NCBI RefSeq assembly: GCF_900103485.1
Contig: NZ_FNHW01000001.1
Location: 2,873,057 to 2,937,056 of the forward strand
Length of the DNA: 64,000 nucleotides
Direction of reading: 5' to 3'
Source of the DNA: Fictibacillus solisalsi
GTDB taxonomy: Bacteria; Bacillota; Bacilli; Bacillales; Fictibacillaceae
The notes beneath the pieces are model-generated. The model was given only the letters and a program-made list of their open reading frames with translations. It was not told where the DNA came from and did no database searches. The translations under genes were made by a program, and so were the position numbers. Each line of letters begins with the position of its first letter. The stretch's first letter is position 1. This document shows positions 20,066 to 23,223 of this stretch, piece by piece.

Positions 20066-20096
20066 AAAAAGGAGCCTTAGGGACTCCTTTTTTTAT
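20066..20096. terminator. Terminator after the 39-residue ORF
   Basis: AAAAAGGAG and CTCC plus T7 enclose an inner CC/GG pair with one bulge; it lies between the small plus-strand ORF and the stop of the convergent BASS transporter and can act both ways. Confidence 0.85.
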
Positions 20097-21067
20097 GCCG
20101 ATGTGCTTTCTTTGTTTTGAAGCTGGGACTGTCTTCCAAAATGTCTGGACAACACCAAGCCATAGACCGATGCAAGGATTTGCTGAAACAGCATCCCGAT
20201 CACGACAGGCACGGCTGTCATGGGAGAAAAATAAGTGAGAGCAATAACCGAACCCGCACTGATGTTTCTCATTCCACCGCAGAAAACCGTGGAAACCATT
20301 GTTTCTTGATCATATTTCAGCAAAATACTGACTAAAAAAGACACTAAATATCCGCTGGCTGCAATGAAAAAAACAATGATTCCAATCCACACCAGTTTTT
20401 TATCCACATGCTTCAGATAAGGAGCTGCCACCGATGCATTAATCGAGACTACAACTACCATACAAATTTTCGATACAGGGGCTATCCTTTTTCCCAACGT
20501 CCATTTGATGTTTCCCTTGGTCTTATGATTTAGAATCATACCTACAATGGAAGGGATGACAATCATGATCAGCAGGTCCCTGACCATTGGCCATTCCTCG
20601 ATGGCTACAGACTCTCCGACAAAGAGAGACAGGCTGTACGGAACCACAATGGGCGATAGCAATGTATCAATTAATATAATTGATAACGCAAGGGTACTGT
20701 TTCCTTTATAAATGGAAACCCACATGCTGCTCGTGATTCCGCACGGAATGACCATGGCCAGCACCAGTCCAGTAATGGTGTAAGGATCCGTGGAAAATGC
20801 AATGTGCCCCACTGCCCACGCCCACAAGGGCATAATAACGTGCAAAATGGCCAACCCAATGAAGATGGGGACCGGACGAGACAACGTGTTGCGCAAATGA
20901 GTAAAATTTGAGCCCAGGCTGCCTGAAAACGTCATAAACGCAAAAATCCACGGAACGAGAAACAGAAAGTTTTTTAGCTCATGTGTCAAAAGCATGCCCA
21001 AAAGTACACTGAAAGGGGTAATGAGTGGCATGAATCGCTCTAGCTGATGATTGATCTTTTCTAACAC
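20093..21067 (-). CDS. Bile acid:sodium symporter family (BASS) transporter
   Basis: A 324-residue membrane protein with about ten helices. PLITPFSVLLGM at the N-terminus, the IPCGITSSMWVSIYKGNSTLALS crossing motif and FCGGMRNISAGSVIAL near the C-terminus fit the BASS fold (YocS/PanS-like) and its crossover region. Members import organic anions with sodium; bacterial substrates include pantoate and other keto acids, and none can be assigned here. Single gene, divergent from the SAM-riboswitch-controlled hydrolase but transcribed away from the riboswitch. Confidence 0.85.
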   Translation of the reverse strand: MLEKINHQLERFMPLITPFSVLLGMLLTHELKNFLFLVPWIFAFMTFSGSLGSNFTHLRNTLSRPVPIFIGLAILHVIMPLWAWAVGHIAFSTDPYTITGLVLAMVIPCGITSSMWVSIYKGNSTLALSIILIDTLLSPIVVPYSLSLFVGESVAIEEWPMVRDLLIMIVIPSIVGMILNHKTKGNIKWTLGKRIAPVSKICMVVVVSINASVAAPYLKHVDKKLVWIGIIVFFIAASGYLVSFLVSILLKYDQETMVSTVFCGGMRNISAGSVIALTYFSPMTAVPVVIGMLFQQILASVYGLVLSRHFGRQSQLQNKESTSA

Positions 21068-21289
21068 GCTTAGCCTTCTTCCTTATCATTCTAATAGCCT
21101 ATTATGTTAGTATTTTACAATATAAAAGATTTAATGCCAACATACTTTAATGTAATACTGCAGAAAAGGCTGGGACAAATGCATTATTTTTGATACCTTT
21201 TCTGAAATGGTTCATATTCTATAATCAACTTATCTTATACAATTGACAAACTATTAAAAATATCATACATTAAATTAAAATTATATACT

Positions 21290-21395
21290 TCTTATCCAGA
21301 GAGGCTGAGGGAATTGACCCAGTGAAGCCTCGGCAACAGACTCCCCTGTGAGCACTGTGCCAATTTCAACAAGCTGCTTGCTTGAAAGATAAGAA
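21290..21395 (+). promoter_or_regulatory. SAM-I (S-box) riboswitch aptamer
   Basis: Starting CTTATCCAGAGAGGCTGAGGG, continuing through GTGAAGCCTCGGCAACA, GTGCCAATTTC and a small AAGC/GCTT stem, and closing with GAAAGATAAG. P1 is CTTATC (21291-21296) with GATAAG (21388-21393); the kink-turn, the GCCTCGGCAAC core and the GTGCCAA segment are where the S-box consensus puts them. ATAAGAA (21389-21395) can alternatively pair with TTCTTAT (21427-21433) of the downstream terminator, the classic S-box off-switch logic: high SAM gives termination. It controls the hydrolase at 21527. Confidence 0.9.
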
Positions 21396-21420
21396 ATGTG
21401 TTGATGTGATTCGTTCATTC

Positions 21421-21465
21421 AACTCCTTCTTATGTTTCAGGAAACATAAGAAGGAGTTTTTATTT
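21421..21465 (+). terminator. Riboswitch-controlled terminator
   Basis: Eighteen-base arms (21421-21438 and 21441-21458) form an almost loop-less perfect hairpin followed by a T-rich tail. It lies 28 bases after the S-box aptamer and 60 bases before the hydrolase start, so it is the expression platform of the riboswitch. Confidence 0.93.
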
Positions 21466-21526
21466 ACATTTAATTCCTACTAAAAAGATAAGATTAGTTA
21501 ATTATAAAGAATGAGGAGCTGGTTAT

Positions 21527-22336
21527 ATGGAAAAACACGGTTATTTTCGATGGAAGGATTGCAAGTTAACCGCCACCGTTCATTATCCGCGGCACACATT
21601 AGGGATTCCCCAGGCCAAATTGCCGATCGTCATCATCTGCCACGGTTTTACAAGTAACCGGATCGGTGTGGACCGCCTCTTTGTTAAAACGGCCCAGCAG
21701 CTTTCCGCGAGCGAGTTTGTCGTTTTGCGTTTTGACTATGCCGGCTGCGGAGAAAGCGAAGGCAGCTATGGAGAAAATACATTTCAAGATTTAATCAGTC
21801 AGACACAGGCTGCGATTGATTTTGCCTCAAAGCTGCCCTGCGTCGATTCCAGGGAGATCATCCTCCTTGGCCATAGTTTGGGAGGAGCTGTGGCGGTTCA
21901 GACTGCTGTAATCGATCCGAGGGTAAAAGACTTGATTCTATGGGCTCCGGTAGGAAATCCCTACGATGATATCGTAAATATTGTTGGAAAGGACGAATGC
22001 CAAAGTTTAACTACAAAAGGGTATGTTGATCATCTGGGATATTCATTAAAAGCTGATTTTCTCCAGTCCCTTCAACCCTATCGGCCCATGCTGGAACTGG
22101 CACAATTTACAGGAGACATTTTACTTCTCCATGGAACAGAGGATAAAGACATTCCAAGCGAATACTGCACCCAGTTCTATGACAGCAGCTCCCATAGAAT
22201 TTATGGGAATAGTGAATTGAAGCTCATTAAAGGAGCAAATCATACCTTTTCTTCTATCAATCATTTTAATGAACTTGTTGCCCAAACATTAAACTGGCTC
22301 AACCGCCAGTCAGCCTCGGACCGCATCACGATCTAA
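21527..22336 (+). CDS. Alpha/beta hydrolase under SAM riboswitch control
   Basis: A 269-residue cytosolic serine hydrolase of the YjfP/cinnamoyl-esterase-like type. IICHGFTSNR supplies the oxyanion hole, LLGHSLGGA the nucleophile Ser117, HGTEDKDIP the acid and KGANHTF the His. RFDYAGCGESEG is a further conserved block. GAGGAGCTGGTTAT precedes ATG 21527. Being behind an S-box, it should be made when SAM is low, which points to a role in methionine or sulfur metabolism (for example hydrolysis of a sulfur-containing ester or thioester); that role is inference only. It ends in its own terminator, so it is the sole gene controlled. Confidence 0.9.
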   Translation: MEKHGYFRWKDCKLTATVHYPRHTLGIPQAKLPIVIICHGFTSNRIGVDRLFVKTAQQLSASEFVVLRFDYAGCGESEGSYGENTFQDLISQTQAAIDFASKLPCVDSREIILLGHSLGGAVAVQTAVIDPRVKDLILWAPVGNPYDDIVNIVGKDECQSLTTKGYVDHLGYSLKADFLQSLQPYRPMLELAQFTGDILLLHGTEDKDIPSEYCTQFYDSSSHRIYGNSELKLIKGANHTFSSINHFNELVAQTLNWLNRQSASDRITI

Positions 22337-22356
22337 TCGATCATGATGCTTTTTTT
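22323..22356 (+). terminator. Terminator overlapping the hydrolase stop codon
   Basis: GCATCA-C-GATC pairs with GATC-A-TGATGC (one mismatch) around the TAA stop, followed by T7. The last codons of the hydrolase form the left arm. Confidence 0.88.
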
Positions 22357-22452: not shown

Positions 22453-23223
22453 GTGGATAAAAAGTTCCTTAAAAAGCTGCTCAGTACAGCCATGGTATGT
22501 TTACTTGCTGTGTTGGCTGCAGCTTGCTCACCAGTCCAAGAGAGCAGCAGTCCCGCTGGGCAGAGCGGTGCGATTAAAGGCACACCCGCTACTGTAACCT
22601 ATGTAGTAGATGGAGATACAATCGATGTTAAATTCAAGAACGGAAAAACAGAACGTGTCCGTATGCTGCTCGTAGATACCCCCGAAACGAAACATCCAAG
22701 GCTTGGTGTTCAGCCATTCGGCCCAGAGAGTTCAAAATTCACAAAGACACAATTAACAGGTAAAAAAGTAGGCGTTGAGCTGGATGTTTCCGAACGCGAC
22801 AAGTATGGAAGACTGCTTGCTTACATATGGATTGGCAAACAAAACTTTAACCAGCTGCTTTTGGAAAAAGGATTGGCCCGGGTCGCCTATGTGTATCCGC
22901 CCAATACAAAATATGTAGACCAGTTCCGGGCCACACAGGAAAAAGCCCAGAAAAAAGGCATTGGAATCTGGTCCATCGAGAACTATACCCAGGAGGACGG
23001 TTTTCATGAAAATTCCAAGAGCCAATCTTCTAAAGAAAACAAACCGCCTGCCACTACCCCTTCAAATGAGAACCCCAAAGGAAAATGCAACATAAAAGGC
23101 AATAAGCAGTCGATGATCTACCATGTTCCCGGCGGCCAATCTTATAATGTTACGAAAGCTGAGGTCATGTTTTGCTCAGAGGCAGAAGCCCAAAAAGCAG
23201 GTTACCGAAAAGCAAAAAGATAA
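22453..23223 (+). CDS. Lipoprotein thermonuclease (SNase family)
   Basis: A 256-residue surface nuclease. A lipoprotein signal with lipobox LAAAC (Cys25) anchors it to the outer membrane face. The SNase domain (about 46-175) keeps the catalytic set: VVDGDTIDV (Asp), VRMLLVDTPE (Arg, Asp, Glu) and RDKYGRLLAYI (second Arg). A Ser/Pro/Asn-rich linker leads to a C-terminal module KGNKQSMIYHVPGG...FCSEAEAQKAGYRKAK, a small domain often attached to bacterial secreted nucleases and likely metal- or nucleic-acid-binding. The start is GTG 22453 after GAGGAGA. Monocistronic. Confidence 0.93.
   Translation: MDKKFLKKLLSTAMVCLLAVLAAACSPVQESSSPAGQSGAIKGTPATVTYVVDGDTIDVKFKNGKTERVRMLLVDTPETKHPRLGVQPFGPESSKFTKTQLTGKKVGVELDVSERDKYGRLLAYIWIGKQNFNQLLLEKGLARVAYVYPPNTKYVDQFRATQEKAQKKGIGIWSIENYTQEDGFHENSKSQSSKENKPPATTPSNENPKGKCNIKGNKQSMIYHVPGGQSYNVTKAEVMFCSEAEAQKAGYRKAKR

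Follow-up and report, generated by a model that had tools for sequence, protein, structure and literature searches.

A SAM-I riboswitch is recurrently paired with an alpha/beta hydrolase gene in Fictibacillus and related genomes

A SAM-I (S-box) riboswitch lies directly upstream of a gene for an uncharacterised alpha/beta hydrolase in a Fictibacillus genome, a combination found again in related genomes. Both the RNA type and the enzyme superfamily are already known; their pairing, and the fact that it recurs, appear to be new. A 2004 survey reportedly covered methionine regulation in Gram-positive bacteria. We found no report in the open literature of an S-box paired with this hydrolase; the pair may already figure in the gene lists of S-box surveys, as a hypothetical gene. 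Various Bacillales genes under SAM riboswitches are described, in broad terms, as probably serving cysteine or methionine metabolism or transport (PMC3766115). Our preferred reading, to which we give about an even chance, is that the hydrolase is a SAM-switched serine esterase of the methionine/sulfur-limitation regulon whose ester or thioester substrate feeds cysteine and methionine synthesis. The aptamer, the switch, their conservation, the gene neighbourhood, the predicted fold and the catalytic triad were all obtained by computation.

In the window, the whole 64-kb stretch of DNA that was analysed, the sole Rfam match at gathering threshold is a SAM-I aptamer (RF00162) at 21289-21395 (+), which covers the full model length (1-108) and scores 87.1 bits, where the gathering score is 44.4 (E 2.8e-19 for the window). 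The first-pass annotation had described a complete S-box aptamer, an ATAAGAA/TTCTTAT antiterminator and a terminator ahead of the gene, and each of these elements was recovered. The intrinsic terminator of the expression platform (21421-21458, +) is a 17-pair hairpin followed by TTTATTT, and its 5' arm contains the antiterminator partner TTCTTAT (21427-21433, +). Upon folding the leader as a transcript that ends before the 3' arm of the terminator, the 3' strand of P1, GATAAGAA (21388-21395, +), is predicted to act as the alternative antiterminator strand and to pair with this partner, so that the antiterminator forms instead of P1. The leader folds 5.0 standard deviations better than its own shuffles, with none of 200 shuffles as good. 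A promoter-like site, TTGACA-17-TACATT (21243-21271, +), scores 10/12 in a consensus scan and is weak evidence, since the stretch holds seven matches of such quality where 4.6 are expected.

Forty-six aptamers, of which 21 come from the source genome, were aligned; 26 columns are invariant, among them those of the G-C-A-x-C and G-U-G-C motifs, and the conserved core of the hydrolase aptamer matches the S-boxes of known methionine genes in the same genome. A spermidine-binding variant of SAM-I carries altered nucleotides in J1/2 and in the P3 internal loop (PMC10853860). The J1/2 AGAG and the GCAAC core of the hydrolase aptamer are the same as in most other S-boxes of the source genome; its core looks canonical on these letters, which do not by themselves decide between the two types.

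The source genome contains at least 22 S-boxes (150 of 337 candidates were scored), and the genes behind them include metX, metY, metI-type, metK and metN-type genes; the hydrolase is thereby placed in an ordinary, large SAM regulon. Among the target proteins, MetX, MetY, MetI-type and MetK exceed their NCBIfam cut-offs, MetN, an SfnG-like monooxygenase and an SaoA/taurine-type ABC ATPase fall below theirs, and three of ten S-box target proteins have no NCBIfam match at 1e-60. The metQ, yoaD, mtnW, mtnK, cysH, metH and hom genes of this genome were named by reading their translations only. With 22 S-boxes and about 4,800 genes, a number estimated from 4.8 Mb, the chance that a given gene lies behind an S-box is about 0.5%.

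The hydrolase gene itself (21527-22336, +) follows a likely ribosome-binding site, GAGGAG (21513-21518, +), read directly from the sequence. It encodes 269 residues with a Ser117-Asp206-His239 triad, assigned from the PF12146 match, the structural model and the invariant residues; the match to PF12146 (Hydrolase_4) scores 65.8 bits against a Pfam cut-off of 27. A terminator-like hairpin over the stop codon is followed by seven T (22323-22356, +), and the hairpin proper (22323-22349) folds at -12.9 kcal/mol (z -2.7), with 3 of 200 shuffles as good and no entry in the consensus terminator scan. The earlier description of a gene with its own end terminator is therefore upheld as to the hairpin and its seven T, but the hairpin is the weaker one and is absent from the list of the consensus scan. 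The gene stands alone, as had been stated, in the source genome; in other genomes it shares runs with genes of the metN/metQ-like, sbp-cysTWA or threonine-synthase-like kinds.

Downstream, a staphylococcal-nuclease-like gene (22453-23223, +) comes next on this strand and begins 117 bases past the hydrolase gene; its product, probably a lipoprotein, resembles nucleases and has a 'sunset' domain at its C-terminus (NF051437, 75.1 bits, cut-off 27). On the other side, a divergent gene (20093-21067, -) belongs to the sodium/bile-acid symporter family (PF01758, 83.9 bits) and is possibly a transporter of a related substrate. At another Fictibacillus locus (L028) a gene similar to the nuclease-like one lies near the hydrolase, and a similar divergent symporter-like gene, judged by reading of its translation, adjoins it.

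A search for this pair in related genomes had been suggested beforehand, and we observed the pair in Fictibacillus, in the sister genus g2 and in six other family codes. The family-level search took in 34 genomes. All seven Fictibacillus (g1) genomes searched have the orthologue, each with an S-box upstream; identity is 92% for F. enclensis and 83% for F. fluitans. The sister genus carries the gene in 10 of 18 genomes, with one copy truncated, and an S-box precedes it in all ten. The single genome of g3 has the hydrolase gene (L046) with no S-box nearby, and eight genomes of g4 gave no hydrolase match at 1e-25. The order-level search, with a threshold of 1e-45, gave matches in 43 of 397 genomes, and all 43 loci were examined. 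Outside f1, an S-box precedes the gene in 3/4 loci of f11, 4/4 of f28, 2/2 of f30 and the single loci of f42 and f47 (1/1 each), and none was found in the other order-level family codes (43 loci, flanks of 1.5 to 2 kb, beyond which more distant S-boxes would be missed). Across the class, 91 of 398 genomes matched at 1e-48, and the 73 loci examined included 64 new ones, among which five f58 loci have an S-box directly upstream. No S-box was seen in any f50 row examined, and in f68 just one row, L113, has an S-box, some 1.9 kb upstream and in front of a further alpha/beta hydrolase. In the phylum, 8 of 299 genomes matched at E 1e-40 or better: the source genome, four Bacilli already listed and three others (L164-L166). 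Since 8 of the 18 g2 genomes and 354 of the 397 order genomes have no match at the thresholds used, the enzyme step is dispensable.

We placed these proteins on a quick tree of 118 rows after dropping L047 (a truncated gene, with S-box), L033 and L035 (both without) and a duplicate, L082. A subfamily of 99 rows is set apart from 19 remoter rows (SH-aLRT 96). An S-box lies directly upstream, or heads a two-gene run (L060), in 32 of the 99 subfamily rows and is missing from that position in 67; it was found in none of the 21 remoter homologue loci (the 19 tree rows together with L033 and L035). The 32 rows fall at two places in the tree: a clade of 31 rows, 27 of which have the S-box, and a clade of seven rows (f58), in which 5 have it. 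The S-box label needs at least six changes on the tree, compared with a mean of 28.3 when shuffled, and the starred branches force at least three. One f58 exception, L087 (G463, L242:4784-6362), has its S-box farther upstream, with an insertion that carries a transposase-like ORF (by reading) in between. This insertion is a natural uncoupling of riboswitch and target in which the hydrolase frame is still open.

Closer inspection of the leaders suggests that the switch has been maintained and not only inherited, as far as their sequences indicate. Of 33 leaders, 32 carry a terminator-like hairpin after the aptamer, and its sequence differs between genera; the detector, a simple script run without a shuffled control, missed one leader (L028). 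Exact antiterminator matches reach at least 6 bases in 22 of the 33 leaders and 5 bases in 4, and 7 have none. The match between the P1 3' strand and the terminator is ATAAGAA in 4/7 g1 leaders and AGAGAAC in 7/10 g2 leaders. By simple identity, the hydrolase aptamer of the window is nearest to its g1 counterparts (86-95%). The g2 hydrolase aptamers, of which 6 of 10 were compared, have their closest counterparts among themselves or among g2 metQ aptamers, which are closer to them than the g1 hydrolase aptamers are, and the L037 hydrolase aptamer is 88.7% identical to the metQ aptamer of the source genome. Because the g2 hydrolase aptamer resembles that of metQ, the simplest reading of these sequences suggests that the g2 riboswitch was replaced by a metQ copy while SAM control was kept.

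The neighbourhoods indicate sulfur supply as a whole more than any single methionine reaction. A metQ-like gene with an S-box of its own is next in line in 8 of the 10 g2 loci. In G079 (L055/L153), metE, which has a cobalamin riboswitch of its own upstream, stands in line with the hydrolase, and in G448 the gene is in line with a metN-like gene, then a metQ-like gene, two HpaB-like monooxygenases and one luciferase-like monooxygenase. An sbp-cysT-cysW-cysA run precedes the hydrolase in G427 and follows it, with an Rrf2-family regulator, in G507, and sbp-cysT-like genes (37-40% identity) follow it in G765. Four further loci have a gene for an MsnO8- or NtaA-type monooxygenase near the hydrolase; in three genomes that are close relatives it is encoded on the opposite strand. 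In G250 a threonine-synthase-like gene precedes the hydrolase, with one S-box before both, and in G496 such a gene follows it, ahead of an Rrf2-like regulator (PRK08197, 620 and 652 bits); its value as a marker is lowered by a similar gene near the remoter homologue L078, on the other strand. Some subfamily members without an S-box also adjoin metN/metQ-like or sulfate-transport genes.

The neighbour search used references drawn partly from the same loci and had no random-gene background. The neighbouring MetE, Sbp and sulfate-ABC ATPase models exceed their NCBIfam cut-offs, whereas those for MetN and MetQ are the best models yet remain under theirs. The cysT and cysW genes were named by reading and mutual similarity, and the sbp and cysA of G427 and the sbp of G507 by NCBIfam. 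We left uncounted, as weak, matches to CysA (27-38%) in L115, L118, L125, L134 and L137, to MetN (36-37%) in L058 and L059, to CysT (26-29%) in L047 and L082 and to NtaA (25%) in L142. Reading gene by gene, we found no sulfur gene beside the enzyme in the f68 loci L086, L091, L093, L097 and L129, so its function may not be confined to sulfur. As a separate observation, an S-box in G507 precedes another alpha/beta hydrolase, distinct from the subfamily one (L150:8396-9787; Abhydrolase_1, 72.1 bits), and the order there is this second hydrolase, the subfamily hydrolase, the Rrf2 regulator and sbp-cysTWA.

The structure of the hydrolase was predicted with pLDDT 90 and pTM 0.90, and the nearest folds over the whole chain are feruloyl/chlorogenate esterases, PET46 and the thermostable TTL lipase. 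The model thus suggests a feruloyl/cinnamoyl-esterase fold over its whole length, and a shared fold shows no function. Ser117, Asp206 and His239 are invariant in all 99 subfamily rows, and nothing in the triad, which appears intact from the alignment, contradicts the predicted activity. Cys38, Tyr71, Gln92 and Thr93 are equally invariant (99/99) and are mostly replaced by other residues in the 19 remoter rows; Cys74 also occurs in 16 of those 19. Cys38 directly precedes an HGF motif that, by analogy, may form the oxyanion hole. Two more specific assignments were rejected. The highest-scoring NCBIfam model, the homoserine-lactone hydrolase family UilS (NF047920), reaches 73.3 bits, far under its equivalog cut-off of 400, and a UilS-type lactonase was set aside on that ground. 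A MetX-type enzyme was likewise discarded, as none of the 18 NCBIfam families listed for the hydrolase (E 0.001 or lower) is a MetX model.

Under the preferred reading, plentiful SAM would allow the transcription-terminating SAM-I riboswitch to keep an intracellular serine esterase off. At low SAM, P1 would open and its 3' strand would pair with the 5' arm of the terminator; the antiterminator so formed would permit transcription of the hydrolase gene. The enzyme would then hydrolyse an ester or thioester, freeing a sulfur-bearing or methionine-precursor piece that could enter cysteine and methionine synthesis. SAM binding and induction at low SAM are expected here by analogy with established S-box behaviour. 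Membership in the methionine/sulfur regulon, which the first-pass annotation had suggested, is strongly supported by conservation and gene neighbourhood. Its further proposal, that a sulfur compound is released from an ester or amide, is one that we still infer, and the modelled fold and triad would fit an esterase. It is the substrate above all that we infer, most likely an ester or thioester; we favour hydrolysis of such a bond in view of the transporter and monooxygenase genes found near the hydrolase. The fold relatives act on ordinary carboxylic esters, judging by the structure titles, which counts against the sulfur-ester reading.

The main rival, which we consider unlikely, is homocysteine-thiolactone recycling, in which the hydrolase would open the ring, return homocysteine to methionine synthesis and protect proteins. 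The expected regulation fits, as the gene would be induced at low SAM, and the best NCBIfam match, though far under its cut-off, is UilS. The human serine alpha/beta hydrolase BPHL, a homocysteine thiolactonase, is a precedent (PMC11312131), and editing of homocysteine by MetRS yields the thiolactone (PMC11004401); under this reading, methionyl-tRNA synthetase would activate and edit homocysteine when methionine runs short. However, recycling leaves the runs with sulfate-transport genes unexplained, and a problem that should be general sits poorly with a match in just 43 of 397 order genomes. BPHL is also not among the matches listed, which proves neither its absence nor a difference of folds.

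We hold it similarly improbable that the protein is a general esterase, acting for instance on hydroxycinnamate or other plant esters, with indirect S-box control through methyl-group supply or a general starvation response. The closest solved structures, being feruloyl/chlorogenate esterases, PET46 and a thermostable lipase, agree with this explanation, as do the 67 of 99 subfamily rows that have no S-box directly upstream. It accounts less well for an S-box at two separate places in the tree, for control that is retained with different aptamers and for separate met and cys transport-gene contexts. That the S-box is a relic or hitch-hiker with no regulatory effect on the hydrolase strikes us as very improbable, because the aptamer core and the terminator are maintained together across genera, even if the G463 insertion does separate S-box and hydrolase gene with the reading frame left open. 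A chance or misread riboswitch is ruled out by the RF00162 score, the shuffle test, the switch anatomy and the terminators in relatives.

The survey of S-boxes also brought out FbpA-like small proteins, which are a second, unexpected S-box target; a literature search found no report of an S-box upstream of FbpA. In the source genome (at G000:C4:138726-139170; L154:727-1171, L194), an S-box and a terminator-like hairpin lie upstream of a small ORF that matches Fur-regulated basic protein A (PF13076, 59.1 bits); a threonine-synthase-like gene comes immediately before. This order of synthase, S-box and FbpA is found in 5 of 7 Fictibacillus genomes, with the synthase identified by reading of its translation in four. 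We examined 50 FbpA loci, drawn from 70 matches in 34 genomes of the family, and observed an S-box upstream on the same strand in eight, five of them in Fictibacillus. An FbpA-like ORF stands between the S-box and the hydrolase in L052 (1319-1483) and L055 (1223-1390), both reversed loci. In L062 that position is held by a 67-residue ORF that matches nothing in Pfam; a short ORF at the locus resembles, by eye, the start of a threonine-synthase-like protein. Among the other aptamers of the source genome, the FbpA one is the closest to the hydrolase aptamer of the window (78.5%).

The threonine-synthase-like gene was rejected as a general S-box target: it occurs at 1e-80 in 24 of 120 genomes, and only 1 of 25 loci, that of our own Fictibacillus, has a nearby S-box, which in the source genome follows the gene. 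As these loci otherwise have no S-box nearby, the link apparently does not extend beyond the loci of the hydrolase and of FbpA. Because FbpA-like and threonine-synthase-like genes share S-box loci with the hydrolase in some genomes, we entertain, as an idea that is probably wrong in this full form, that the hydrolase carries out a previously undescribed SAM-controlled supply step and together with the FbpA-like protein and the threonine-synthase-like PLP enzyme makes up a sulfur-starvation module. Such a module, if true, would parallel the Fur iron-sparing response, and the supply step would open a thioester or thiolactone or free a sulfur compound from an ester.

Riboswitches rank with the best clues to the function of uncharacterised enzymes. 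A hydrolase that is tied to a SAM sensor across genera, and that in some genomes without the sensor sits beside methionine- or sulfate-transport genes, indicates that the present picture of methionine and sulfur supply in bacteria is incomplete, and it suggests a short list of candidate substrates.

Comparison with known systems places the enzyme among familiar folds. The model aligns with PET46 (8b4u) over 261 residues (Z 34.0, rmsd 2.6) and with GthFAE (7wwh) over 246 (Z 32.5, rmsd 1.9), and it shares the Ser-Asp-His triad with the feruloyl/cinnamoyl esterases, TTL and PET46 (PF12146), to whose rows it is just 24-33% identical. Unlike the feruloyl/cinnamoyl esterases and PET46, the subfamily has invariant residues of its own and S-box and sulfur-gene contexts. 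The likeness to the UilS N-acyl-homoserine lactonase extends over hydrolase residues 29-137 only. BPHL resembles the enzyme as a serine alpha/beta hydrolase and would act on a metabolite expected at low methionine; the likeness seen here is one of class. MetX, the homoserine O-acetyltransferase, is an alpha/beta-hydrolase-fold enzyme of methionine synthesis, and the source genome has a separate MetX gene behind its own S-box (L004). The RNA corresponds to the RF00162 S-box in its complete aptamer, conserved core, P1-based antiterminator, terminator and off-switch layout, and the sole difference is that its target is an uncharacterised hydrolase and not a known methionine, cysteine or SAM gene.
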